Shown here piece by piece: positions 3,618 through 46,827 of a DNA stretch of 64,000 bases. Location of the stretch: contig NZ_CP108046.1 in assembly GCF_041435115.1 (NCBI RefSeq), positions 9,052,001-9,116,000 on the forward strand, written 5' to 3'. The notes under the pieces are model-generated. The model saw only the letters and a program-made list of their open reading frames with translations, was not told the DNA's origin and made no database searches. Source of the stretch: Streptomyces sp. NBC_00289. Its GTDB lineage: Bacteria; Actinomycetota; Actinomycetes; Streptomycetales; Streptomycetaceae. Each line of letters starts with the position of its first letter. Within the stretch, counting starts at the first letter, position 1. Made by a program: the position numbers and the translations under genes.

Positions 3618-4061
3618 ATGTGTGAGAAGCACAGGACCGAATCCGCGCGCGAACCGTCGGCCGTGGCCCGCTGTGGGTGCGTGGGGCCGTGCAAACCCGC
3701 CGACGCGCGCAGGGCCGTGGAGCTGGCCGTCACGGAACGCTGCCGCGCCACCCACGTCCCCTGTGACCCTGACGCCCTTTCGGACGCCCTCCTCGTCACC
3801 TCGGAACTCACGACCAACGCGATCCTGCACGGCGGCGGTGTCACGGACTTCCACGTCGATGTCGTGGGACCCGGGGTCAGCGTCTCCGTGAGTGACGGCA
3901 GCGACCGGCTGCCGGTGGCCGTGTCGCCGGTCGACCAGCAGGGGCGATGGCGGGCCGGCGGGCGTGGCTGGCCCATCGTCTGCCGGCTGGCGCACGACAT
4001 CCGGGTGACCGACCTGCCCTCCGGCGGCAAGCGCATCACCGCCGTCATGCCGCTGCCCTGA
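3618..4061 (+). CDS. ATP-binding anti-sigma factor (RsbW/HATPase_c_2 family)
   Basis: A 147-aa GHKL-type kinase. The N-box is SELTTNAILHGGG, the G1 box VSDGSDRLP, and the G2 region GGRGWPIVCRLA is a variant in which Trp-Pro replaces the usual Leu. Proteins of this family bind and inhibit SigB-type sigma factors and phosphorylate STAS antagonists. The ATG at 3618 has GGGAG eight bases upstream; an earlier in-frame start is unsupported. An N-terminal Cys-rich stretch (ARCGCVGPC) is unusual and may be metal- or redox-sensitive (inference). The next gene on the same strand is a SigB-family sigma factor, its likeliest target. Confidence 0.88.
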   Translation: MCEKHRTESAREPSAVARCGCVGPCKPADARRAVELAVTERCRATHVPCDPDALSDALLVTSELTTNAILHGGGVTDFHVDVVGPGVSVSVSDGSDRLPVAVSPVDQQGRWRAGGRGWPIVCRLAHDIRVTDLPSGGKRITAVMPLP

Positions 4062-4284: not shown

Positions 4285-5145
4285 ATGCTCATCGATATGT
4301 CGACAAGCCAGTCCGGCGCGCCCGCCGAACAGGCTCCCCCCACAAGGCGCCGGCACGACGACGCCCCCGACACCATCGCCCTCTTCACCCGTCTGGCCGC
4401 ACTCGAGGACGGGCCGGAGCGGGACATACTCCGAGACGAACTCGTCACCGCCTGGCTGCCCATGGCCCACCGGATCGCCGGCCGGTTCCGCGACCGCGGC
4501 GAGTCCATCGAGGACCTCAAGCAGGTCGCGGCCCTCGGTCTGGTGAAGGCGATCGACCGGTTCGAACCGGACCGGGGCGCCTTCGAGAGCTACGCCGTCC
4601 CCACCATCACCGGCGAGGTCAAGCGGCACTTCCGGGACCGGATGTGGGCCCTCAGGGTGCCCCGTCGGGTGCAGGAACTGCGCAACAAGGTCCGGGTGGC
4701 CCGCCGCGAGCTCACCCAGACACCGGGCACCCCCGAGCCCTCCGTCGCCGACATCGCCGCCCACACGGGCCTCACCGAGGAAGAGGTCGGCGCGGGCATG
4801 GAGGCCCTGGAGAGTTTCAGCACGCTGTCCCTGGACGCCGAACTGTCGGCCGACGACGACGGGTACAGCCTCGCCGACACCCTGGGTGCCTCGGACGCGT
4901 CCTTCGACACCGTGGTCGACCGTGAGGCCGCCAAGGAGGGGTTGCGCCGACTGCCCGAACGCGAGCGGGCCATCCTCTACATGCGCTTCTTCGAGGACAT
5001 GACCCAGAGCCGTATCGCCGACCAGCTGGGCATCTCCCAGATGCACGTCTCGCGGCTCATCACCCGCAGCTGCGCCCGGGTCCGGGACGACGTGCTGGGT
5101 CAGCGCGGCAGCCGCCGCGACGCCGGTGGACGGTCGGTCGCGTGA
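4285..5145 (+). CDS. RNA polymerase sigma factor, SigB/SigF/SigG family
   Basis: A 286-aa sigma-70 group 3 factor. Region 2 is seen in DLKQVAALGLVKAIDRF and FESYAVPTITGEVKRHFRD, region 3 around residues 130-190, and region 4 with the helix-turn-helix MTQSRIADQLGISQMHVSRL near the end. This family directs general, osmotic and oxidative stress regulons in streptomycetes and is held inactive by RsbW-type kinases. The ATG has AGGAG nine bases upstream. The gene follows an anti-sigma kinase and is followed 20 bases later by a DUF5133 gene. A close paralogue lies at 45727-46518 in this window. Confidence 0.95.
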   Translation: MLIDMSTSQSGAPAEQAPPTRRRHDDAPDTIALFTRLAALEDGPERDILRDELVTAWLPMAHRIAGRFRDRGESIEDLKQVAALGLVKAIDRFEPDRGAFESYAVPTITGEVKRHFRDRMWALRVPRRVQELRNKVRVARRELTQTPGTPEPSVADIAAHTGLTEEEVGAGMEALESFSTLSLDAELSADDDGYSLADTLGASDASFDTVVDREAAKEGLRRLPERERAILYMRFFEDMTQSRIADQLGISQMHVSRLITRSCARVRDDVLGQRGSRRDAGGRSVA

Positions 5146-10907: not shown

Positions 10908-11726
10908 ATGGGGGAAACAGAGCCCGCTTCGGGATTCCGTACACAGAACATCGCCGCCGACCGGGTGCCGCAGCTGGTGGCCGCCCTGGACGCCCAGGAA
11001 GCCAACGTGGGCGTCCGGCGGCTGCGCGCCTGGGCGCACGAGGCGCTGGCCGTCCGTCCCGGCGACCGGGCGCTCGACATCGGCTGCGGGACGGGCTCGG
11101 AGACGCGGGCGCTCGCCGCCTCGGCCGGCCCGGACGGCGCGGCGCTCGGCATCGAGCCCAACCCGGGACTGCGCGCGGTGGCCGAGGAACGCGCCGCCCG
11201 GGACGGCAGCCCGGCCCGTTTCGCGGACGGCGACGCGTTCGCCCTGCCCGCTCCCGACGCGTCCGTGGACGTCGTCTGGTGCGAACGGGTGTTGCAGCAC
11301 CTGTCGGAGCCGGACCGGGCGGTCGCCGAGATGCGACGGGTACTGCGCCCGGGCGGCCGCATCGCGCTCCTCGACACCGACTGGGCCACCGCGATCCTGC
11401 ATCCGGGGGAACCGGAGATCATGGCGGCGCTCTTCTCCGGCACGCTCACCGGCGCGGCGAATCCCCACTCCGGACGGCGGCTCGTGGGCCAGCTGAGCGC
11501 GGCCGGGCTGGTGATCGACGACCGGGGCGCGCAGGCGCTGCTCCAGGACCACCGGTCGGTGACCTGGCCCCTGGTGCGCATGCTGGGGGAGTCGGCCGTG
11601 CGCCGCGGGCTGCTGACCGAGGCCCAGCGCGACCGCGCCTACGACGACCTGGCCGAGGCGGCCGGACGGGGGGCGCTGCACATGTCCGTGACGATGTTCG
11701 GGGTCGTCGCCCACCTCCCGCGCTGA
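10908..11726 (+). CDS. Class I SAM-dependent methyltransferase
   Basis: A 272-aa methyltransferase with the SAM-binding motif I ALDIGCGTGSETRAL near residue 55, an acidic motif II in ALGIEPNPG, and the VWCERVLQHLSEPDRAVAEM segment of the UbiE/Methyltransf_11 group. The substrate is unknown. The ATG at 10908 lies right behind a -10 box, suggesting a leaderless transcript. It diverges from the flavoprotein gene and is closed by a hairpin shared with the convergent phosphatase gene. Confidence 0.87.
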   Translation: MGETEPASGFRTQNIAADRVPQLVAALDAQEANVGVRRLRAWAHEALAVRPGDRALDIGCGTGSETRALAASAGPDGAALGIEPNPGLRAVAEERAARDGSPARFADGDAFALPAPDASVDVVWCERVLQHLSEPDRAVAEMRRVLRPGGRIALLDTDWATAILHPGEPEIMAALFSGTLTGAANPHSGRRLVGQLSAAGLVIDDRGAQALLQDHRSVTWPLVRMLGESAVRRGLLTEAQRDRAYDDLAEAAGRGALHMSVTMFGVVAHLPR

Positions 11727-11731
11727 CGCGG

Positions 11732-11768
11732 GCGCACCGACCGGCGGGCACGCGTGGAAGCGGTGCGC
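11732..11768. terminator. Hairpin between convergent genes
   Basis: GCGCACCG (11732-11739) pairs with CGGTGCGC (11761-11768) across a 21-nt loop in the 53-base gap between the methyltransferase and the stressosome operon tail. There is no T-run. Confidence 0.45.
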
Positions 11769-11779
11769 GGGCCGGCCGG

Positions 11780-13537
11780 TCAGAACGCCGCGACGCCGGC
11801 CGGGGTCCGCGTCAACTCGGCGGCGCTGCTGTGGATGTGACACAGCAGCAGGCACACGTCGTCGTCGCGCTCGGAGTCGCTCAGCAGCGGGTACAGGAGC
11901 CGGTCCGCCGAGCCGTCGAGATCCTCGTCCAGTTCCGCGGAGCGGAACGACCCGAGCGCCCCCGCCAGCCGCTCGATGCCCGGGTCTATGCCCTGCGCGC
12001 GCCGCTCGACCAGCCCGTCCGTGTACAGCGCCAGCGTCGAGCCCGGTGACAGCCGCACCGTGTGGTCGTCGATCTCCTGCTGGAGGGGGATGCCCAGCAT
12101 CGCCCCGGGCTTGGCGTCCAGCGTGCGCACCTGTCCGTCCGGGGTACGCAGCACCGGCGGAGGATGCCCGGCCGCCGCCCAGGTCAGGGTGGGGTCCTCG
12201 GGGTGGAAGCGGGCGATGACGGCGGTGGCGTACAGATCGGGCTGCAGATGGTGCAGGAACACGTGCAGCCGGGTGAGCAGCTGGCCGGGGCTGCCGCCGT
12301 CGACCGCGTAGGCGCGCAGAGCGGTGCGCAGTTGGCTCATCATCACGGCCGCGTGCAGACCGTGCCCGGTGACGTCGCCGATGACGGTGATCAGGCTGCC
12401 GTCGGGCTGCCGGAAGGCGTCGTACCAGTCGCCGCCGATGTTGAGCCCGTGGGTGGCCGGCAGATAGCGGGCGGCCAGGTGCAGGCCGGGCGTGGTGGGC
12501 AGGTCCGTGAGGAGGGCGCGCTGCAGCGTCTCGGCGATGTCGCGGTTGTGCTCGAACCGGCGGGCGTTGTCGATCGCGATGCTGGCCCGCCGGGTGAGTT
12601 CGATCAGCATGACGGCGTCGTCCGGGTCCCAGCTCTCGCCGGGCGGTGACAGCGTCAGCACACCCAGCGGTGTGCGGCGGGTCGGCAGCGGTACGCACAG
12701 CAGGGGGCGGGCGGGATCCAGTGCCGACGGAGGGCGGTCGTCCACGCCGGGCAGGCCGCCGGGACGGTCGGCCGCGTACTGCGGACGCCCGGTGCGGGCC
12801 GCGCGCACGGCGGCGGCCGGGTGGGCGGAGGGACGATGTCTGTCGTCTCCGTCGAACAGCCACACGTCGACGCTGCCGGCATACTCGGGCACCAGCAGGT
12901 CCGGGAGCAGACGCACGATCTCGTCCTGGTTGAGCGAGCTCGTCAGCGCGGCGCTCGCGTCCGCCAGGAACGTCAGCCGACGACGGGCGCTCTCCGCCTC
13001 CTCGCGGGCGGTGTGCTCGGCGGCGAAGGCCTCCCGCTGGGCCCGCCAGGCCGCGTCCAGGTCGGCGTGCAGGGCCAGCACACCCTGGTTCGTCTGGTGC
13101 AGCTCCTCCCGGTGGAAGGCGACCAGTTCCTGCTGTGCGGCGAGTTCCTCCAGCACCTCGGCCGTGTCCTCGTCGGCGCCCAGCAGCGCCTCCGCCAGGA
13201 CCTCCGGGTCCTCGGCCACGACGTCGCCGGCCGCCGTGGCCGGGGCTTCGGGGCAGCCGACGGTCGTCCGCCACGGCGGTACGGTGTCGGCGCCCGCGTC
13301 GGCCGCGGGGGTCACCACGGCGTGCAGGAGACCTTCCCCCGCGGCTGCCGCGGTGATCTCGAGGGTGAGCAGCCAGGTGCCGCCCTTGGTGAGGCACTGC
13401 CGCAGGTGCGCGCTGAGCGCGGTGGTCAGGCGGGTGCGCTCGAGGGCGGGCACGCCGTACGCGGCGGCTAGGCGGGCGGTGGCGATCCGGGCCCGTGCCG
13501 CGTCGGTGACGCCGCTGATCTGCCAGGTGCGTGTCAT
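11780..13537 (-). CDS. GAF-SpoIIE PP2C phosphatase (RsbU-like), last gene of the Rsb operon
   Basis: A 585-aa protein. The N-terminal 100 residues look like a degenerate ATPase/regulatory domain, then a coiled coil (about 140-200), a GAF domain (about 205-345) and a PP2C SpoIIE phosphatase (about 365-565). Metal-site motifs are intact: GGDWYDA, GDVTGHG, YTDGLVE and DDDVCLL. RsbU-type enzymes dephosphorylate STAS antagonists, which frees SigB-type sigma factors. Its ATG overlaps the stop of the upstream gene by 4 nt, so it is translated from the same mRNA. In Bacillus the RsbT kinase binds and activates RsbU, and an RsbT-like gene is two genes upstream. Confidence 0.9.
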   Translation of the reverse strand: MTRTWQISGVTDAARARIATARLAAAYGVPALERTRLTTALSAHLRQCLTKGGTWLLTLEITAAAAGEGLLHAVVTPAADAGADTVPPWRTTVGCPEAPATAAGDVVAEDPEVLAEALLGADEDTAEVLEELAAQQELVAFHREELHQTNQGVLALHADLDAAWRAQREAFAAEHTAREEAESARRRLTFLADASAALTSSLNQDEIVRLLPDLLVPEYAGSVDVWLFDGDDRHRPSAHPAAAVRAARTGRPQYAADRPGGLPGVDDRPPSALDPARPLLCVPLPTRRTPLGVLTLSPPGESWDPDDAVMLIELTRRASIAIDNARRFEHNRDIAETLQRALLTDLPTTPGLHLAARYLPATHGLNIGGDWYDAFRQPDGSLITVIGDVTGHGLHAAVMMSQLRTALRAYAVDGGSPGQLLTRLHVFLHHLQPDLYATAVIARFHPEDPTLTWAAAGHPPPVLRTPDGQVRTLDAKPGAMLGIPLQQEIDDHTVRLSPGSTLALYTDGLVERRAQGIDPGIERLAGALGSFRSAELDEDLDGSADRLLYPLLSDSERDDDVCLLLCHIHSSAAELTRTPAGVAAF

Positions 13538-14592
13538 GGGCGGTCCGCCGCGGTCGGGGCCAGCACGGCCACGGCGGTGTCGTCCCGCACAGGGCCGGCC
13601 GGGCTGCTGGTGTCGCGGACCGTGACGGCGGCGATCACGGCCGGGTCGGCGGACAGCAGACAGGGGTCGGACGGTGGCGTCCAGCGGCTGGGGAGGCCGT
13701 CGCTGTGCAGGATCAGCAGCCGGTCCCCGGCCCAGCGGGCCTGTTCCTCACGCAGGGTCGTGGGGCGGTGGACGCCGACTATGCCGGGCCGGGACAGGAG
13801 GGAACGCCAGGTGCCGTCCTCGCGCAGCCGGGCCCCTATGTTCCCGACGCCGGCGAACCGCAGCACACCCGTACTCAGCTCGACCTGGGCCAGCGCGACA
13901 GCCGCCCCCCTGGTGCCGCGCAGCGCCGTGTCCAGGTTCCGCAGGGCCTCGGCGGGCGTGAGGTGGGCCGAGCGGCGCAGTGCCTCGGCGGCGGCCGTCG
14001 ACGCCCGGGCGACCTCGGGTCCGTGTCCGAGCCCGTCGGCGAGCATCAGGGTCAGGCGGTCGTCCGCCCGCACCCAGGCCCAGGCGTCACCCGAGTAATC
14101 CGCGCCGGCGTAGGGGATGTTGACCCCTCCGGCCCGTAGCGGGCCGGCCGGTGGCCGGGAGCCGTCGCGGCCGGTGCCGCCGATGCGGGCCAGCGCCACC
14201 GTCCCGCGGCCGGGGGCGCTGTGCAGCTCGAAGTCGTCGGCGACCCGGCGGCACGTGCCCAGGCCGGCGCCGAGGGAACGCGCCGTCGTGAATCCGTCGC
14301 GCAGCGCGCCGGCGACGTCGGCCATGCCCCGGCCGTGGTCGATCGCGGCGATCTGCACGCACGGACCGGCGCCCGGGCCGTCCACGGGCACCGGTGGGGC
14401 CACGGCGTCGACGAGGAGGTGGCCGCCGCCGGCGTGCTTGAGCAGATTGGTGGCCAGTTCGGTCGCCACCAGGCCTGCCGCCGTGCGGCGTTCGTCGCCG
14501 AGCCCGGCGAGACCGGCGGCGGCCTCCGCGGCCACCCTGGCGTCACGCACCCGGGTCGAGTCGTGGACGGGGACGTCCCATACGCGCGGCAT
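13534..14592 (-). CDS. Fused HATPase-RsbX-like SpoIIE phosphatase
   Basis: A 352-aa protein with two halves: an N-terminal GHKL kinase-like domain (N-box ATELATNLLKHAGGG, G1 IDHGRGMAD, G2 SLGAGLGTCRRVAD) and a C-terminal SpoIIE/RsbX-type phosphatase from about residue 180 with ADGLGHGPEV, HSDGLPSRW and RDDTAVAVL. RsbX-type enzymes reset the stressosome by dephosphorylating RsbR/RsbS; the added kinase half is common in actinobacteria. The start codon overlaps the upstream stop in TGATG and its own end overlaps the next ATG, so it is fully embedded in the operon. Confidence 0.88.
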   Translation of the reverse strand: MPRVWDVPVHDSTRVRDARVAAEAAAGLAGLGDERRTAAGLVATELATNLLKHAGGGHLLVDAVAPPVPVDGPGAGPCVQIAAIDHGRGMADVAGALRDGFTTARSLGAGLGTCRRVADDFELHSAPGRGTVALARIGGTGRDGSRPPAGPLRAGGVNIPYAGADYSGDAWAWVRADDRLTLMLADGLGHGPEVARASTAAAEALRRSAHLTPAEALRNLDTALRGTRGAAVALAQVELSTGVLRFAGVGNIGARLREDGTWRSLLSRPGIVGVHRPTTLREEQARWAGDRLLILHSDGLPSRWTPPSDPCLLSADPAVIAAVTVRDTSSPAGPVRDDTAVAVLAPTAADRP

Positions 14593-15032
14593 CAGCGCTC
14601 CTCGCGGGGCGACGGCGGCACGGCCGTCCAGGAGGTCACCGTGACGGTCGTACCGGATCCGGGGGCGCTGTCGATCGTGAACTCGTGCACCAGTCTCCGC
14701 GCGCCGCCCAGGCCGAGCCCGAGGCCGCCGCCGGAGGTGTAGCCGTCGCTGAGTGCCCGGTCCAGGTCGGTGATGCCCGGTCCCTCGTCGGTGAAGGCCA
14801 GGCGCAGCCCCTGGGCGCGCCCGTTGTGCGCCTGTGACGCCTCCATCAGGCCGCCGCCGCCGTGCACCAGCGTGTTGCGGGCCAGTTCGCTGGCCGCGGT
14901 GACCAGCTTCGTCTGTTCCACCAGGCCGAAGCCGAGCCGGGCGGCCGCCTGGCGCACGTGCTGGCGCACCCACACGAGATCCATGTCCGAGCGGATCGGC
15001 AGGCAGGCCTCGACGCCCGCGGAGGTGTGCAT
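14592..15032 (-). CDS. rsbT: RsbT-like serine/threonine kinase of the stressosome
   Basis: A 146-aa GHKL kinase with N-box ASELARNTLVHGGGG, G1 FTDEGPGITDLD and glycine-rich G2 GGGLGLGLGGARRLVHEF. The arrangement and its place directly after an RsbS-like STAS gene fit RsbT, which phosphorylates RsbS and RsbR and then leaves the stressosome to activate an RsbU phosphatase. The ATG overlaps the RsbS stop (TGATG). Sequence alone does not separate RsbT from RsbW; context decides it. Confidence 0.87.
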   Translation of the reverse strand: MHTSAGVEACLPIRSDMDLVWVRQHVRQAAARLGFGLVEQTKLVTAASELARNTLVHGGGGLMEASQAHNGRAQGLRLAFTDEGPGITDLDRALSDGYTSGGGLGLGLGGARRLVHEFTIDSAPGSGTTVTVTSWTAVPPSPREER

Positions 15033-15451
15033 CACGGACTCTCCTGGCGATTGCCGCCTGAACGAGGCGTCGGGGCGGGCCGGGTGAGGAGGTCCATGGC
15101 CGCCTCGGTGTTGAGGGCGGTGCGCAGGCCGGGGAGCGTCAGCCCCAGCTCCACCAGGGTGATGGCGACGGCGGGACGCATGCCGGCCACCACCGTCTGC
15201 GCGGCCAGCAGCGAGGCCTGCGCCGCGATCTCGGCCAGCACCCGGCCGAGGAAGGAGTCGACGATCTCGACACCGGAGATGTCGATGACCACGCCGGTGA
15301 CCCGGCTGGCGGCGATGGTCTCGCTCAGGTCCTGCTGGAGTCGCTGCGCGGTGTTGTCGTACAGATCCCCCTGGAGGGTGACCAGGAGGACGTCGCCGAG
15401 TCTGAGGACCGGCACCGGCCCCGCGGCGGGGAGGGAGGAGTGGTCGTTCAC
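15032..15451 (-). CDS. rsbS: RsbS-like STAS antagonist of the stressosome
   Basis: A 139-aa single STAS domain with VIDISGVEIVDSFLGRVLAE; Ser66 is at the position phosphorylated in RsbS. The conserved GMRPAVAITLVELGL helix follows, as in RsbR/RsbS but not in SpoIIAA-type antagonists. RsbS is the structural core that binds RsbT in unstressed cells. It starts at GTG 15451, which shares GTGA with the stop of the RsbR-like gene, so translation is coupled. A proline-rich tail of about 15 residues is added. Confidence 0.88.
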   Translation of the reverse strand: MNDHSSLPAAGPVPVLRLGDVLLVTLQGDLYDNTAQRLQQDLSETIAASRVTGVVIDISGVEIVDSFLGRVLAEIAAQASLLAAQTVVAGMRPAVAITLVELGLTLPGLRTALNTEAAMDLLTRPAPTPRSGGNRQESP

Positions 15452-16347
15452 CGTGGTCCCGCACCGCCGGGCGCCGCGCTGACGATGTTCGCGCCCAGCT
15501 GGTGCAGTGCGTACGCCAGGGCGTCGGCCAGGCTCGCGCGGGTCACCACCGTGCCCAGGTCCAGGCCGAGATGGACGATGGTCTGCGCGATGGCCGGTCG
15601 GATGCCGGAGACGACGCACTCCGCGCCCATCAGACGCGCGGCCGCGACGGTCTTCATCAGGTGCTGGGCCACCAGCGAGTCGACCGTCGGCACTCCGGTG
15701 ATGTCGAGGATGGCGAAGCGGGCGTGCTGGTCGACGACGGCCTCCAGGAGCGTCTCCATCACGACCTGGCTGCGCGCGCTGTCCAGCGTCCCGATCAGTG
15801 GAACGGCCACGATGCCGTCCCACAGCTTGATGACCGGCGTGGCGACCTCCAGCAGTTGCACCTGCTGCCGCTCGATGAGGGCGTGTCCCTCGCTCAGCGC
15901 GGTGTCCAGGACCACCAGCCGCAGGGTGCCCAGCAGCACGGTGAGAGCCGTCGCGCACTCTCTGACCTCGTCGGCCGAGGCGTGGGGCAGGTCGGCGATC
16001 AGCAGGTTCAGCGCCGGGGGGCGCAGGGCGTCCACGTCGTTGGAGACCTGGGCGGTGGTGAAGCCGGCCCGGGAGCGTGCCGCGCCCATCCGCGCCAACT
16101 GCTCGCGTACGACGGTGAATCCGGCGGCGTCCGGATCCTGCACCGGGCCCTCCTCGGCCACGTGGGCCAAGGCGTCGACGACGACCTTGCCCGCCTCGAC
16201 GGCCTCGTCACGCGAGACGGTGAACACCGAGCGGAACAGGGGTTCGTCGGCCCACCGCTGGGCGATCTGCTCACGGCGGCGGCGCAGAAAGGCCCCGACC
16301 TCCTTGGTCGGCGCCCCCTGCTGTCCCGCGGATGCGTGCTCCGGCAT
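15448..16347 (-). CDS. rsbR: RsbR-like stressosome sensor (RsbRD N-terminal domain plus STAS)
   Basis: A 299-aa protein: an N-terminal helical RsbRD-type sensor domain (EVGAFLRRRREQIAQRW onward, to about 160) and a C-terminal STAS domain (about 165-285) with AILDITGVPTVDSLVAQHL, where the Thr and Ser are candidate RsbT sites. RsbR paralogues form the shell of the 1.8-MDa stressosome with RsbS. I start at ATG 16347, eight bases after GAGGAG, rather than at the GTG nine bases earlier. It is the first gene of a five-gene overlapping operon. Confidence 0.87.
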   Translation of the reverse strand: MPEHASAGQQGAPTKEVGAFLRRRREQIAQRWADEPLFRSVFTVSRDEAVEAGKVVVDALAHVAEEGPVQDPDAAGFTVVREQLARMGAARSRAGFTTAQVSNDVDALRPPALNLLIADLPHASADEVRECATALTVLLGTLRLVVLDTALSEGHALIERQQVQLLEVATPVIKLWDGIVAVPLIGTLDSARSQVVMETLLEAVVDQHARFAILDITGVPTVDSLVAQHLMKTVAAARLMGAECVVSGIRPAIAQTIVHLGLDLGTVVTRASLADALAYALHQLGANIVSAAPGGAGPR

Positions 16348-16544
16348 CTGCTCCACTCCTCGTTCACGTCGTGTCGCACCGAGCCCGCTTCAGCAACGAG
16401 ACGACGGTGAAACTCTTGCCGGATGACAACTCTAACCGTGGCCCGACCTCGTACGACACCGTCCCGCGCAATTGACACGGTCGGGTGGGAGCCGGTCGGT
16501 GTGGCCGTCACGGGCGGTCGAATCGGGAACCACCGTTCGAGGCG

Positions 16545-17732
16545 CTAGGCGTCGGACGACGCCGGTTGCTTGCCGAACCAGTCGAGGCAGACCACCAGCG
16601 CGTCGTCGTCCGGCTCGGGTCCGCCGCGACCGCCGCCCAGTTCGCGCAGTACGGCGGCGGGGGTGTCGGCCGCAGGCAGCAGACTGGTCGAGGTGACGGC
16701 CCGGGCCAGGGCGCGCTCACCCCGCTGTTCACCACCCTCCGGCGCGGCGGCCGCGTACACCCCGTCACTGACGAAGACGAGGCGGTCGCCGGGTTCCAGA
16801 CGGAAGTCCTGGGCGACGTAGTCGGTTTCCTCGAACATGCCCAGCGGCAGCTGCGCCTCGAAGTCGACCGTCGCCACCGTACGGTCGCGCAGGCGCAGCA
16901 TCCGCGGGGAGCCCGCGTCGACCACCTGCATGCGGCCGGTGGGCAGGTCGACGTCCACCAGCAGGGCGGAGAGATACGCCTCGCCCCCGTACCGGGCGTG
17001 GATCGCCTGGTCGGCGAGCGCCGCCTGGTCCGCGAGGGGGATGTCGGCCCGCCGCGCGTTGCGCAGCGCGCTGACGCCGAGATTGGTCAGCAGTGACGCC
17101 TCGACGTCCTCACCCATGCCGTTGGCCAGGTACAGCGTCAGCCGGTCGGTGGAGGCGGACCAGTCGAAGGTGTCGCCGAAGATCGCGTAGGCCGGTTCCA
17201 GCTGCGCGCCCACGGCGTACTCGGGCCGCGCGGAGGACCGGGCCCGGAGCAACTGCCACTGCATCTCGGCCGCGAGGGTCAGCCGGTCCGCTCGGCGGGC
17301 CCGCTGGTACAGATCGGTGTCGCGTTCGGCGACCACCACCTCGTGCCCCAGCGCCTGCGCCACCTCCGCCAGTTCCACCAGCTCCGCCTGGGCCGGCGCG
17401 GCTGTGGGAAGCGTCACGGACAGCACACCCAGCCGGTCACCGCGCACGGTGACCGGCAGATGGACCCGCGCCCGTCCGCCGTCGAGTTCCTCGACGAACG
17501 GCTCCTGCGATCCGAAGGCGCGGCCGGCCGCGCTCCGGTGCACGGGAAGCGCCTCCACGGGTACGGCGGGGGAGTCGGCCACGGGCCGCAGCACGGTCAG
17601 CCCGTAGTCGGCCATACGGAATTCCACGGCCTCGGCCGCGTACTGACTGCACAGCACTTCCCGGACCGCCGTCGGCAGCTGGTCCGGGGCCGCGGAGCGC
17701 AGGGCGCGCTCCGCGGCGACGAGTCTCTTCAT
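16545..17732 (-). CDS. GAF-SpoIIE-like phosphatase with degenerate active site
   Basis: A 395-aa protein with an N-terminal GAF-like domain (about 20-150), a short helical linker and a SpoIIE/PP2C fold (about 175-385). The motifs diverge: GGDWYDA is FGDTFDW, GDVxGHG is ANGMGED (metal-binding Asp replaced by Asn), while VSDGVYAAAAPEGG and DDDALVV remain. It may therefore be a weak enzyme or a binding protein. The ATG at 17732 has GAGGGAG before it; the longer open frame overlaps the divergent MarR gene. It diverges from MarR across 100 bases. Confidence 0.85.
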   Translation of the reverse strand: MKRLVAAERALRSAAPDQLPTAVREVLCSQYAAEAVEFRMADYGLTVLRPVADSPAVPVEALPVHRSAAGRAFGSQEPFVEELDGGRARVHLPVTVRGDRLGVLSVTLPTAAPAQAELVELAEVAQALGHEVVVAERDTDLYQRARRADRLTLAAEMQWQLLRARSSARPEYAVGAQLEPAYAIFGDTFDWSASTDRLTLYLANGMGEDVEASLLTNLGVSALRNARRADIPLADQAALADQAIHARYGGEAYLSALLVDVDLPTGRMQVVDAGSPRMLRLRDRTVATVDFEAQLPLGMFEETDYVAQDFRLEPGDRLVFVSDGVYAAAAPEGGEQRGERALARAVTSTSLLPAADTPAAVLRELGGGRGGPEPDDDALVVCLDWFGKQPASSDA

Positions 17733-18374: not shown

Positions 18375-18767
18375 TCAGACCCCCTGCCCTTCGGGTGTCT
18401 CCTGCATCCGGTCGACCAGCGCGAGTGCCTCCTCGACACTGTCCGACACCGGGACCGTGATGCTGACACCCGTGAGGTCGAGTATCCGGCGCACGGCGGG
18501 CGGGGGCGCGATGATGTGCACGCTGCCCGGGAGGCCGCGCGCCTCCTGGTAGACCCGCAGAACGATGTTCATGCCGGACGAGTCCATGAAGGGCACGCCG
18601 GACAGGTCGAGCAGGAAGTGCCGCCGGCCGTGGTGCAGCTGGTTGGCGAGGTGGTGCTGGAACTCCGTCGCCGTGTCGACGTCCAAGTAGCCCTCGACCG
18701 TGACCTGGGCCACGTCCTCCCGGGGCAGGGTGACCTCGACGGACAGAGGGTTCTGGGCAATGGACAC
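18375..18767 (-). CDS. STAS-domain anti-sigma factor antagonist (RsbV/BldG-like)
   Basis: A 130-aa single STAS domain with FLLDLSGVPFMDSSGMNIVL, in which Ser63/Ser64 occupy the RsbW-type phosphorylation site. Unphosphorylated antagonists bind the anti-sigma kinase and so release the sigma factor. The GTG at 18767 follows GGAGG at 5 bases; the longer ATG frame is unsupported. Two SigB-type promoter candidates lie 35 and about 230 bases upstream, which would give positive feedback on the sigma factor (inference). Confidence 0.88.
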   Translation of the reverse strand: MSIAQNPLSVEVTLPREDVAQVTVEGYLDVDTATEFQHHLANQLHHGRRHFLLDLSGVPFMDSSGMNIVLRVYQEARGLPGSVHIIAPPPAVRRILDLTGVSITVPVSDSVEEALALVDRMQETPEGQGV

Positions 18768-19138: not shown

Positions 19139-19465
19139 ATGGGCGCTCACGTCCTTCTGTGTCCGGACGGCACCGCGGCGACACTGACGGTCGACACCGA
19201 CATCGACGACCAGACCCGGCCGGACCTCGAGTCCGCGGCCGACGCGCTGCCGGCCACCGTCCGTGAACTCACCCTCGACCTCGGTCCCGTGGTGTTCGTG
19301 GACAGCGCGGTCCTGCATCTCATCGGCAGCATGCAGCGGTCCGTCGAACGCAACGGCGGGCGGCTGCGGATCGCCGGCCTCGCCCCGCAGCCCCTCAGGC
19401 TGCTGCGACTCGCCTCCGCCCTGTGGCCGGAGGCCCGCTGGGACGACTACCTGCGAGCCTGCTGA
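19139..19465 (+). CDS. STAS-domain protein
   Basis: A 108-aa STAS domain: ELTLDLGPVVFVDSAVLHLI has Ser56 at the usual phosphorylation position, although the antagonist DSSG motif is DSAV here. The C-terminal half (GGRLRIAGLAPQPLRLLRLA) matches the STAS beta-helix end. It may be an antagonist for one of the local kinases or a divergent binding partner. The ATG at 19139 follows GAGAGGGG. It converges on the large PAS-SpoIIE gene across a long hairpin. Confidence 0.83.
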   Translation: MGAHVLLCPDGTAATLTVDTDIDDQTRPDLESAADALPATVRELTLDLGPVVFVDSAVLHLIGSMQRSVERNGGRLRIAGLAPQPLRLLRLASALWPEARWDDYLRAC

Positions 19466-19591: not shown

Positions 19592-22138
19592 CTATGAGAC
19601 CCGGATGCCCACGATGCACGTGTCGTCGTCCGTGTCCGACCTGCTGTAGGTGAGCAGCCGGTCCAACTGCAGATCCAGCGTCCTCGGGGCACTGCGCGCG
19701 GTGGCCAGCAGATGGGTCAGCGACTCCTCCACGGAGCGGTCCCGGCGCTCGATCAGCCCGTCGGTGTACATCAGCAGCGTGTCCTCCGGGGCCAGTTGAA
19801 CCTCGTCCTCCTCGTACACCGCTTCCGGTACGGCACCCAGCAGCATCCCCCTGACCAGTGGCAGCGGCGCGGCCTCCGCGCCGCGCACCAGGACGGGCGG
19901 GAGATGACCGGCCCGGGCCCAGCGCAGGGTGCGCCGGTCGGGGTCGTACAGACCGCAGGCCGCCGTGGCGGTGACCGCCCCCGTCAGATGGTGGGCCACG
20001 ATGTTCAGCCACGACAGCAGCTGTCCGGGCCCGGCGCCGGTCACCGCCAGCCCGCGCAGGGCGTTGCGGAGCACCACCATGCTGGTCGCCGCCTCTATGC
20101 CGTGACCGGCCACGTCACCGACGCACAGCAGCACGTTCCGGGACGGCAGCACCACGGCGTCGTACCAGTCGCCGCCCACCAGCTGCTCCGTCTCGGCCGG
20201 CCGGTAGCGGACGGCCACCTGGAGACTGGGCACCCGCAACGGAGCCTGGGTCGGCGGCATGATGGCGTGCTGCAGCTGGAGCGTGAGCCGGTTGCGTTCG
20301 GCCGACTGCTGCTCGCTGTGCGCGAGTTGGTCGCGGGTGGCGGCGAGGGCGACCTCGGTCCAGTGCTGGGACGAGATGTCCTGATAGGCGCCCCGGATCA
20401 CGAACAACCGGTCGTTGGTGTCGAGGACCGGTTCGGCGACCACGCGGATGTGCCGGGTCACCCCGTCGGGACGCTGCAACCGGAACGCCGCGGAGGACGG
20501 CCGCCGGTGGTGCAGCAGGGTGCGCAGGAATCGGCGGATGGCGACGGCGTCGTCCGGATGGGCGTGCGCCGGCAACTCCTCCAGCGGCACCGGGGTGCTC
20601 GACGGCGAGCGGCCGTACAGGTCGAAGAGCTGACCGTTCCAGGTGATCTCGTTGGTCAGCAGGTTCTCCTCGAAACCGCCGATCCGCCCCAGGCGCTGGG
20701 CGTGCTGCAGCAGGCTGGCGAGCCGGGCCGTCTCGTCCTCGATGCGCCACAGCAGCAGGACACTCGAACCGTGCCTGCTGATGCTGATGTCCGCGATCGA
20801 CGACAGCGGCACCTGGTCGACGAGGGCGGTGAGGTTCATCCGACGGCCCCTGAACGGCTCACCCGTGGCATACACCCGCTCGACGCGCTGGAAGAGCTCG
20901 CTCTCCCCGGCGGCCATCGGGTAGGCCTCGAGGAGCAGGGCGCCGTTGACGACGGCACGGGGCCGGCCGGCCGGATCGAGGAAGCGGTTGTTCACGTGCT
21001 GGATACGGAAGTCCACGAGGTTCCCGAAGCCGTCGACGTGCGGCACCAGGACCAGGGCGGGGTCGTGCAGTCCGTCGGCCAGGTCCATCAGCTCCGCCGC
21101 GTCCGGCAGGATCCGCGGCTCGGGTGCGGACTCACTGCGCAGCGTGGACGTCTCCAGCGTGTGCGCGCACAGTTCGGCGAGCGCCTCCACCTGGCGGACC
21201 ACCTGAGGTGGTTGCGGGTCCAGCGGCGCCGCCCAGACGATCTCCAGAACCCCGTGGATGCGCCCGCCGGTACCGGCGGGCAGGGCGACACGTCCGCCGT
21301 CCGGATTGCGTTGCCGGCCGATGCTGGGCAGGCCGGTCGCGGCGAGCGAGGTGATCCACTGCCCGGAGCGCTCGCTGAGGCCACGACGCGCCACCGTCGC
21401 CACGTCCGGCGGGACGTAGCGCCAGCGCTCCGCCTCGGCCGGTGAGAAGCCGGCACTGCCCGCCAGGCTGAGGGAGCCGTCGGGGCCCGCCGACCAGATG
21501 GCCACGGCCACCGCACCGAGCGGCCGCAGCGCATGCTCCAGGAGGGAATCGGCGACGGCCTGGGTGTCGTCCGCCGCCAGCGCGCCGCTCTCCGCGGCCC
21601 GCAGCCGTACGGCCGCGGACTCGTCCACCGGTTCGCCGTCGCCCTCGGCGGCGGCGAGGAACGCGTCGGTCACCTCGGACATCCGGTCCCGGGCGGCCTG
21701 GTTGATGACCTCGACCGCGAACTCCAGCGGTGTCACCTTGGCCTGCTCGGTCAGCTCGGCCAGCTGCCGCGCGGCCTGGGTCGGGCCGCACTGCAGCCGC
21801 TCGACCAGGATGCCCTTGGCGAGTTCGATCAGGGCCCGCCCCTCGGCCTCCGCCTGGGCCGCCCGCACTTCGCGGCGCAGCCGGTCCACGGTGGCCGCCA
21901 GTCTGCCCACGGAGGAACCCGGGGCCGCCGGCTCGCCGGCCTTCCCGTCGGTGCCGTCGGACGGGGCGGGGGCGGTGCCGGCGTCGGCGTGCCCCTCACC
22001 GGCCTGGGGACCGTCGACGGACCCGGACCGTGCCTCACCGTCGACGGACCCGGACCCGGACCCGGACCCGGACCCGGACCCGGACCCGGACCCGGGCCCG
22101 CCGTCGACGGTTTCGCTCGGATGCTCGGAGTTGCTCAC
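19592..22138 (-). CDS. ANTAR-GAF-PAS-SpoIIE multidomain phosphatase
   Basis: An 848-aa protein. Order: a Gly-Ser repeat (about 10-30) encoded by eight GGACCC units; a helical ANTAR-like segment (about 90-155, ALIELAKGILVERLQCGPTQ); a GAF-like domain (about 170-330); PAS domains (about 350-610, including IGGFEENLLTNEITWNGQLF); and a SpoIIE phosphatase (about 640-845) with GGDWYDA, GDVAGHG, YTDGLIE and DDDTCIV intact. It is likely a cytoplasmic sensor phosphatase acting on STAS antagonists. ANTAR domains normally bind RNA, so a second output is possible. It starts at GTG 22138, 91 bases after the hybrid kinase, probably in one transcript. Confidence 0.88.
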   Translation of the reverse strand: MSNSEHPSETVDGGPGSGSGSGSGSGSGSGSVDGEARSGSVDGPQAGEGHADAGTAPAPSDGTDGKAGEPAAPGSSVGRLAATVDRLRREVRAAQAEAEGRALIELAKGILVERLQCGPTQAARQLAELTEQAKVTPLEFAVEVINQAARDRMSEVTDAFLAAAEGDGEPVDESAAVRLRAAESGALAADDTQAVADSLLEHALRPLGAVAVAIWSAGPDGSLSLAGSAGFSPAEAERWRYVPPDVATVARRGLSERSGQWITSLAATGLPSIGRQRNPDGGRVALPAGTGGRIHGVLEIVWAAPLDPQPPQVVRQVEALAELCAHTLETSTLRSESAPEPRILPDAAELMDLADGLHDPALVLVPHVDGFGNLVDFRIQHVNNRFLDPAGRPRAVVNGALLLEAYPMAAGESELFQRVERVYATGEPFRGRRMNLTALVDQVPLSSIADISISRHGSSVLLLWRIEDETARLASLLQHAQRLGRIGGFEENLLTNEITWNGQLFDLYGRSPSSTPVPLEELPAHAHPDDAVAIRRFLRTLLHHRRPSSAAFRLQRPDGVTRHIRVVAEPVLDTNDRLFVIRGAYQDISSQHWTEVALAATRDQLAHSEQQSAERNRLTLQLQHAIMPPTQAPLRVPSLQVAVRYRPAETEQLVGGDWYDAVVLPSRNVLLCVGDVAGHGIEAATSMVVLRNALRGLAVTGAGPGQLLSWLNIVAHHLTGAVTATAACGLYDPDRRTLRWARAGHLPPVLVRGAEAAPLPLVRGMLLGAVPEAVYEEDEVQLAPEDTLLMYTDGLIERRDRSVEESLTHLLATARSAPRTLDLQLDRLLTYSRSDTDDDTCIVGIRVS
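22046..22093. repeat. Eight tandem GGACCC hexamers inside the phosphatase gene
   Basis: Eight perfect copies of GGACCC run from 22046 to 22093, flanked on both sides by CCGTCGACGG. In the minus-strand gene they encode an alternating Gly-Ser linker. Slippage would change protein length without breaking the frame. Confidence 0.95.
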
Positions 22139-22229
22139 AGTGCGAAGGCTCCTCGGCTGGAAAACCCTGGGGCGCGGACGGGCGGACACCCGCCCGGCCC
22201 TGTCGTGTGCGGGGCGGGGACCGGCATTC

Positions 22230-26507
<4,278 letters not shown>

Positions 26508-26531
26508 GCGCATCCTCGTTCCGCTCCCCAG

Positions 26532-45726: not shown

Positions 45727-46518
45727 TCAGCGGTTGTCGGTCAGGACCTCTTCGCGAAGCCGGTCGAAGCAGCCGCTGAGCAGTCGGGAGACGTGCATCT
45801 GTGAGATGCCGAGCTGTTCCGCGATCCCGCTCTGCGTCATCCCCTTGTAGAAGCGCAGGTAGAGAATCGTGCGCTCGCGCTCCGGCAGCGCGTCCAGACA
45901 GGGCCTGACGGCCACCCGGTCGACCACGACGTCGTAGCCGGGGTCGGGCCGGCCGATCGCGTCCGCCAGCGCGTACCCGTCGGTGCCGGGCATCTCGGCC
46001 TCCAGCGACAAGGTGGAGAAGCACTCCAGGGCCTCCATGCCGGTGCGCACCTCGTCCTCGCTCAGCTCCGCGAACACGGCGATCTCGGCAAGGGTCGGGC
46101 CGCGGCCGGGGGTGGTCTGGGCGAGCTCCTTCATGGCCTGGCGCACCCGGTTGCGCAGGTCCTGGACCCGCCGCGGCACGTGCAGGGTCCACAGGTGATC
46201 GCGGAAGTGCCGCTTGATCTCCCCGGTGACGGTGGGCACGGCGTACGCCTCGAAACGGCTTCCGCGCTCCGGGTCGTAGTGGTCGACGGCCTTGACCAGG
46301 CCCAACGCGGCCACCTGGTACAGGTCCTCGACGGTCTCGCCGCGTCCCCGGAAACGCATCGCGATCCGTTCCGCCATCGGCAGCCACAACCGGATCAGCT
46401 CGTCCCGGAGCGCCTTGCGTTCCGGGCCCTCGGGCAGTGCCGCGAGCCGGACGAAGGCCTCGGTGGTGTCGGGGGCGTCGTCGTGCGGATGCTGCTTCGT
46501 TCTGGTGGTGATGCGCAT
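45727..46518 (-). CDS. RNA polymerase sigma factor, SigB/SigF/SigG family
   Basis: A 263-aa group 3 sigma factor with DLYQVAALGLVKAVDHYD (region 2), RFEAYAVPTVTGEIKRHFRD, and the region 4 helix-turn-helix MTQSGIAEQLGISQMHVSRL. It is a clear paralogue of the factor at 4285-5145. The ATG at 46518 follows GGAGGTG at 7 bases; the extension to 46572 is rejected. No anti-sigma gene is adjacent, so its partner must be elsewhere, possibly one of the orphan kinases in this window. Confidence 0.94.
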   Translation of the reverse strand: MRITTRTKQHPHDDAPDTTEAFVRLAALPEGPERKALRDELIRLWLPMAERIAMRFRGRGETVEDLYQVAALGLVKAVDHYDPERGSRFEAYAVPTVTGEIKRHFRDHLWTLHVPRRVQDLRNRVRQAMKELAQTTPGRGPTLAEIAVFAELSEDEVRTGMEALECFSTLSLEAEMPGTDGYALADAIGRPDPGYDVVVDRVAVRPCLDALPERERTILYLRFYKGMTQSGIAEQLGISQMHVSRLLSGCFDRLREEVLTDNR

Positions 46519-46827
46519 GGCGCGCACCTCCTCGACGAGGTGCTGAATGGACAGACACCGCGGGAGGCGCAACCCGGACCGGACCTACACACCGGGGACC
46601 GAGAGCCGACTCCCACGGAACGTGCCTCCTGTCCGAAGCACTGAAATGCGGATTCCCCGGGTCCGCGCCGCCGAAACAAAGTCGGAAATACGGTGACTCA
46701 ACGCGACCGCGCGATGCGGAAACGTCGCCGGGCGGGGTCGGTAAATCATTTACGGCAGTACTCCCACCGAATGTGCTGTGCCGGAATTCCGCCCGGAGAA
46801 TTCCCCGGCGCGCCGGGCGCTCCGCCG
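46519..46827. other. Intergenic region upstream of the sigma factor gene
   Basis: It should contain the sigma factor promoter on the minus strand, but I see no convincing GGGTA-type box. It has an AT-rich island with the perfect 13-bp palindrome GTAAATCATTTAC (46741-46753), a possible operator, next to the broken ABC permease gene. No intact gene seen. Confidence 0.6.

Follow-up and report, generated by a model that had tools for sequence, protein, structure and literature searches.

How does a stressosome operon pass its signal to an output phosphatase in which no RsbU_N domain can be recognized? The operon that raises this question occupies positions 11,780 to 16,347 of the window, as we call the entire stretch of 64,000 nucleotides analyzed here (Streptomyces sp. 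NBC_00289, assembly GCF_041435115.1, contig NZ_CP108046.1, positions 9,052,001 to 9,116,000 of the forward strand). It comprises five minus-strand open reading frames (ORFs) which, read from 16347 to 11780, encode RsbR, RsbS, RsbT, an ATPase-RsbX fusion (X), and an RsbU-like phosphatase (the output). The peculiarity overlooked in the earlier note on this DNA is the input end of the output protein. We lean slightly toward the answer that a likely decayed RsbT-family domain, together with a helix motif behind it, is predicted to receive free RsbT and to switch the phosphatase on. The operon and its parts are as follows.

15448-16347, minus strand: RsbR-like protein, RsbRD_N sensor domain and STAS domain (Pfam)
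15032-15451, minus strand: RsbS-like protein, a single STAS domain, GTG start (Pfam; nearest solved structure RsbS of 6qcm)
15254-15256, minus strand: Ser66 of the RsbS-like protein (alignment to 6qcm)
14592-15032, minus strand: RsbT-like switch kinase, HATPase (Pfam), with N-box SELARN, G1, and G2 intact
13534-14592, minus strand: RsbX-like protein, HATPase_c_2 and SpoIIE (Pfam)
14191-14559, minus strand: ATPase half of X, RsbT family, with intact N-box TELATN (HATPase_c_2 at residues 12-134)
13690-14064, minus strand: SpoIIE/PP2C half of X (Pfam)
11780-13537, minus strand: output phosphatase, RsbU-like, no detectable RsbU_N, GAF and SpoIIE (Pfam)
13247-13537, minus strand: residues 1-97 of the output protein, likely a degenerate RsbT-family domain (pseudo-RsbT), ATP-site motifs lost
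12941-13207, minus strand: residues 111-199 of the output protein, one continuous predicted helix, the linker (structure model)
13058-13105, minus strand: residues 145-160, linker motif EL..TN.G..AL...L (alignment A2)
11834-12406, minus strand: SpoIIE/PP2C domain of the output phosphatase (Pfam, fold search)

Each gene overlaps the next, as had been noted before, and rereading the sequence returned the junctions GTGA, TGATG, TGATG, and ATGA on the minus strand. The assignment to a stressosome-type module is likewise borne out by Pfam and solved-structure matches to the predicted proteins. The order is not that of the classical Bacillus module, as had been claimed; it is R-S-T-X-U, and rsbV, rsbW, and sigB were not found in the operon when the ORFs around it were inspected. 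This order is more than chance, because R, S, and T are consecutive in 70/70 Streptomyces loci (the window and 69 loci from RsbS matches; one weak second match in G314 was left out; L-numbers denote loci and G-numbers genomes of the comparison set). The label RsbU-like, also given earlier, holds for the SpoIIE/PP2C phosphatase domain and fails for the N-terminus: RsbU_N (PF08673) gave no Pfam match in the output protein at an expectation value (E) of up to 1, while the same library detects RsbU_N in L049 and L055.

What stands in its place is a block of 97 residues modeled as one strand, two helices, and three strands, with a predicted local distance difference test (pLDDT) of 64-84. The N-box, G1, and G2 motifs of the ATP site are gone from it. 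In profile comparison with RsbT, the window-type domain scores 88% when pooled with its sister type, and the model is consistent with a GHKL fold; the window output likely begins with a degenerate RsbT-family domain. The predicted linker helix follows, with a pLDDT above 90 from residue 141 onward and of 49 to 85 ahead of it, and E145, L146, T149, N150, G152, A155, L156, and L160 within it are invariant across the 28 sequences of alignment A2.

The linker travels with the stressosome genes. RsbS of this kind (E ≤ 1e-12) occurs in 64/121 Streptomyces genomes and 22/246 genomes of the phylum; a linker-only profile (E ≤ 1e-4) matches 64 of the 121 Streptomyces genomes, which comprise 63/64 genomes with RsbS and 1/57 without (Fisher p 2e-32, uncorrected for shared descent). 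As an exception, G341 has its RsbS on a 3.6-kilobase contig. The 77 places matched in the genus lie inside RsbS loci in 67 cases and in eight other genes in the remaining 10; six of these eight come after part of an X gene, in most cases at contig ends, and two stand alone (G255 and G347). The stand-alone gene of G347 (L274), of GAF-PP2C type and bearing the motif, is a second output gene in that genome, besides the kinase-type output (L058) in its stressosome operon. Across 396 phylum genomes the profile found 13 places in 11 genomes, all of them, by position, in output genes; RsbS was found in nine of these genomes by the first search and in the other two, G359 and G447, by a later one. A generic signaling helix was tested as an explanation of the motif and rejected, since linker-only matches sit in output genes in the 396 phylum genomes (up to 16 candidates scored per genome) and, in the 121 genus genomes (nearly all candidates scored), inside RsbS loci or in the eight genes just described.

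The same helix precedes outputs of different kinds. Among the 64 Streptomyces loci not cut ahead of the output gene, the gene following X combines the linker motif with GAF, as in the window, in 26 (the PP2C domain being cut off in L214), with PP2C in 21, with a HisKA kinase in seven, where a separate PP2C protein comes next, and with PAS and a HisKA_3 kinase in three (HisKA_3 was assigned by Pfam in L208 and by likeness in the others). One locus has the motif with a broken frame (L194), two have a PAS-type kinase with a changed motif (L059 and L195), and four have no output gene beside X (L165, L173, L217, and L191). One linker helix stands ahead of four Streptomyces output kinds: GAF-PP2C, PP2C, HisKA kinase, and PAS-HisKA_3 kinase. 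In the L191 genome the output gene is located elsewhere (L273); L165, L173, and L217 are second R-S-T-X copies in genomes with another operon, whose output they may share. The changed motif of L059, L195, and L279 reads ELSDAD(H/Q)GLIAL, with Ala for Thr and Asp for Asn. By reading, the outputs of these three loci and of L208, L209, and L212 join the linker to PAS and a HisKA_3-type kinase and lack the ATPase-like domain. The kinase-type outputs of L046, L047, and L058 carry the motif as a tandem double, and their signal may run from kinase to phosphatase, because the protein that follows combines, by reading, a receiver domain with PP2C.

A genome scan with the motif yielded at least 598 stretches, at least 440 of them encoding a relative. 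In the best 80 of these at least 440 relatives, mostly from Micromonosporaceae, a two-half, single-ORF X precedes the output gene in 80/80 and R-S-T-X is present in 79/80, L072 starting inside the operon. An intact N-box was found in none of the actinomycete output domains (0/55, 0/18, and 0/88; the 18-, 55-, and 88-row sets had been reduced from 120, 203, and 120 by removing near-duplicates and motif-less rows).

Intact forms occur on plasmids. A tblastn search of plasmids, with the kinase-type input as the query, returned 25 records (17 Deinococcus, four Streptomyces, Nonomuraea, Embleya, Sphingomonas, and Caballeronia), of which 24 were also among the listed RsbS matches, with RsbS about 2 kilobases off by position; CP094464 was not among the matches listed, and in D. 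psychrotolerans the distance from RsbS to the output runs across the start of the record. Among plasmid loci hand-picked from the tblastn and RsbS record lists, the outputs of D. radiodurans MP1 (DR_RS15590), Deinococcus sp. KNUC1210, and Sphingomonas aliaeris have the same linker motif behind an RsbT-like domain whose N-box and G1 are intact; behind the helix, the Deinococcus and Sphingomonas outputs are kinase-like. The RsbT-like domain of the Caballeronia output is degenerate. The D. radiodurans plasmid MP1 locus (L221) has a full R-S-T-X and, after it, two genes that carry an ATP-binding protein annotation; the first of them combines the intact RsbT-like N-domain with this linker motif. 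A 55-domain tree, which leaves out the window-type domain as too degenerate, places output domains on one side of a branch (96/86) and X halves in another group (100/100), and RsbT makes up the rest; by this grouping, a single family has RsbT, the X half, and the output domain as its paralogues.

Given that members of the ATPase family, such as SpoIIAB and RsbW, pair with each other, the most economical mechanism would have free RsbT pair with the pseudo-domain of the output and grip the helix. In unstressed cells, the RsbR/RsbS core would hold RsbT. Under stress, RsbT would phosphorylate Ser66 of RsbS and Thr/Ser of RsbR and then leave; free RsbT would pair with the pseudo-RsbT domain and clamp the EL..TN.G..AL helix. 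The long linkers would then stiffen into a coiled coil, and the PP2C domains would thereby come together as an active dimer, as reported for Bacillus RsbU, which has another N-domain (PMC12143880, in excerpt). The phosphatase would dephosphorylate an RsbV-type STAS protein, probably its target (candidate at 18375-18752), and free a SigB-type sigma factor.

Several observations weigh against this proposal. Taken alone, residues 1-97 or 1-85 of the window-type domain match RsbT weakly (27-38%), and with the disordered tail kept the profile value is 0.95%. In one comparison a GAF control scored 99.84% against the window-type set, likely because the N-terminal extension of P0110 carried N-domain letters into that control; P0110 was omitted from the later set. 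The fold match belongs to the kinase-type domain; whole-model searches of the window protein listed PP2C matches only. The ATPase-like domain is absent by reading from the strict-motif outputs of L208, L209, and L212, and so is dispensable in some; two Variovorax outputs also do without an RsbT-like domain by reading and carry the motif near the N-terminus. In five proteobacterial outputs, those of two Paraburkholderia, Salipiger, Phaeobacter, and Alloyangia, the RsbT-like domain is intact and the motif is missing. An output gene is located away from any X in G255 and G347, and G343 (L271), in which RsbS and RsbT were not found, keeps an output gene with an intact motif, adjoining an ORF of 88 residues with a match to the PP2C half of X. 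Misses do not prove absence, the candidates scored per genome having been limited to seven in one search, up to 33 in that for RsbS, and up to 16 in the phylum linker search; in the genus linker search of 121 genomes, nearly all were scored.

Three other explanations have to be set beside that of RsbT docking on the output. The output protein could be a captive of the stressosome, its RsbT-like domain docking on the RsbS/RsbR STAS surface and being released upon phosphorylation of the core, with free RsbT acting as a kinase only. The common family of RsbT, the X half, and the output domain would fit such a role, as would the versions with an intact N-box in Deinococcus, Sphingomonas, Paraburkholderia, and Rhodobacterales; the window protein, however, has lost its ATP-site motifs, and L208, L209, L212, and the two Variovorax outputs keep the motif without any such domain, so that we regard this arrangement as unlikely.

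Less probable still is that the N-domain and motif are merely the dimerization part of an independent, GAF-controlled phosphatase alongside which the stressosome genes just travel. A long helix is indeed predicted, a GAF domain is present, and the output genes of G255 and G347 lie apart from R-S-T-X. Yet the uncorrected co-occurrence of the linker with RsbS (63/64 against 1/57) speaks against this, as does the single linker kind ahead of four output types. In G482 (L272), where RsbS and RsbT were not found, the orphan output phosphatase has a changed motif, reading ERMHRSDQGVLSL where the others have EELHQTNQGVLAL. Together with G343, one case each, this exception suggests that the stressosome may be what preserves the motif. 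That RsbT regulates the output by phosphorylating it, as proposed in the form of transient phosphorylation for outputs without RsbU_N (PMC9237108, in excerpt), would suit the kinase motifs of RsbT, intact in 31/31 by pattern, with the motif Thr as a conceivable acceptor, and strikes us as very improbable, Thr being replaced by Ala in L059, L195, and L279 and thus not needed in all.

We return to RsbT docking on the output, in which the X protein would reset the core. X is RsbX-like in that, by domain and position, it is a PP2C phosphatase adjoining RST, and it differs from an RsbX in not being single-domain. The fusion of a kinase to RsbX had been taken for an oddity; it is the rule in Streptomyces. 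The ATPase half is present in 68/70 loci, that is, in all 68 whose contig reaches it (L216 and L218 are cut by contig ends), and both halves were seen in 64/70 (contigs end in L187, L219, and L220, and the PP2C half of L204 is sub-threshold). The ATPase half also occurs in 80/80 loci of the best-80 histidine-kinase set, mostly from Micromonosporaceae, and on nine annotated plasmids of Proteobacteria and Deinococcus; in the X ORF of eight loci from other actinobacterial families (L049-L056), detection was limited to the PP2C half. The N-box Glu and Asn are kept in 48/49 aligned X sequences (one gap). With its ATP-site residues conserved, the ATPase half may serve to dock X on the STAS core or may be a second kinase; in the scheme preferred here, the intact RsbT-like half would likely dock X on the STAS surface vacated by RsbT.

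The core proteins have what such a scheme would need. The STAS part of the RsbR-like protein has RsbR of 7o0i as its nearest solved structure, followed by 6qcm and 7b0u, and alignment points to Thr187 and Ser224 as likely phosphoacceptors, which we equate with Thr171 and Thr205 of Bacillus. The first site is Thr in 145/149 sequences and the second Thr or Ser in 145/149. Ser66 of the RsbS-like protein, singled out before, does align with the Ser of the solved RsbS 6qcm, and we take this position to be the phosphosite; among 149 related sequences it is Ser in 141 and Thr in two, and the pattern failed to match six. By alignment, the phosphoacceptor residues of a stressosome core (RsbS Ser and RsbR Thr/Ser) are present. 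The N-box Glu and Asn are kept in 31/31 aligned RsbT sequences, and at E ≤ 1e-6 the only other match of the RsbT-like protein in its own genome is the ATPase half of X.

Outside the operon, the window holds the following genes of possible relevance.

3618-4061, plus strand: HATPase_c_2 gene, RsbW-like, shortly ahead of a SigB-type gene (domain match)
4285-5145, plus strand: SigB-type sigma factor gene, nearest to the operon, SigB-type match at 4429-5094 (family cut-off)
16545-17732, minus strand: separate SpoIIE/PP2C phosphatase upstream of the operon (Pfam)
18375-18752, minus strand: RsbV-like STAS protein on which the output phosphatase may act (place like that of SCO7325, orthology from gene order)
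19139-19465, plus strand: further STAS gene beside the operon (domain match)
19592-22189, minus strand: ANTAR, PAS, and SpoIIE protein (domain match)
22230-26513, minus strand: large hybrid kinase, rich in HAMP-like repeat units, placed like SCO7327/OsaD (translation by reading)
45727-46572, minus strand: second SigB-type sigma factor gene (family cut-off)

Because an RsbV-like STAS gene adjoins the operon and nine SigB-type sigma factors pass the family cut-off in the genome, two of them in the window, it is plausible from gene content that the module feeds a SigB network. Two strict patterns found no SigB-type promoter over the 197 bases ahead of rsbR, and neither a sigma-70-like promoter nor a terminator was found in 11600-16600; for this reason we do not claim autoregulation by SigB. 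In S. coelicolor, SCO7325 (RsbV) acts in SigB activation (PMC8346170, in excerpt). The S. coelicolor SCO7324 operon likewise has five genes, the first related to RsbR/RsbS (PMC7244524, in excerpt), and the same neighbors by locus number, RsbV SCO7325 and the hybrid kinase SCO7327 (excerpts of PMC8346170, PMC9739823, and PMC9739842); by order and description, it is putatively orthologous to the window operon.

Neither the RST core nor the RSTX order nor the exchange of outputs is new. The Bacillus subtilis RsbRST-RsbU-RsbX system shares RsbR, RsbS, RsbT, a PP2C output, and a PP2C feedback phosphatase with the window, and its RsbU joins an N-domain to a helical linker, there the activation route: RsbT binds RsbU_N and the linker, which becomes a coiled coil, and the phosphatase dimerizes (PMC12143880, in excerpt). 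In contrast, the window operon has no detectable RsbU_N, bears an RsbT-like half on X, and contains no rsbV-rsbW-sigB. RSTX modules, as described in excerpts of PMC9237108, share the order R-S-T-X followed by a signaling protein often without RsbU_N, as are most of the outputs considered there, for which phosphorylation by RsbT is suggested; they differ in that X is given a single domain, and how the signal reaches such outputs is not settled there. Fusions of RsbU_N to GGDEF or histidine kinase in Moorella and Proteobacteria (PMC12143880, in excerpt) likewise swap one RsbT-receiving input among outputs, whereas the window input is a pseudo-RsbT domain with the EL..TN.G..AL helix. Rv1364c (3ke6) and mycobacterial rsbUW (PMC8115616, in excerpt) also unite PP2C with an RsbW-family ATPase in one protein; the ATPase follows PP2C there (3ke6 ranges) but precedes it in X of the window and is degenerate in the window output. 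Our literature search found no description of an RsbT-derived input domain on outputs or of the linker motif; Pane-Farre 2005 on RsbRST output modules (cited in PMC7522486) may hold a prior mention.

More tentatively, and with slightly less credence than we give its contrary, we suggest a second, RsbU_N-free stressosome class that uses one fold three times: as free RsbT, as an RsbT joined to the reset phosphatase, and as an RsbT joined to the output. The copy on the output would still be an intact enzyme in Deinococcus and Sphingomonas, would have become a pseudokinase in Micromonospora and Streptomyces, and would be missing from Variovorax, with the EL..TN.G..AL helix behind it retained as a universal stressosome plug before phosphatases or histidine kinases. 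The domain and helix are a concrete, sequence-defined candidate for the missing contact to outputs without RsbU_N, a problem stated in excerpts of PMC9237108, and the candidate contact occurs in workable organisms, Streptomyces and Deinococcus radiodurans. If the proposal is true, stressosome outputs would become recognizable from sequence, the exchangeable linker toolkit proposed in excerpts of PMC12143880 would be extended, and the family would offer a case of an enzyme decaying to a docking domain while the adjoining motif stays fixed.

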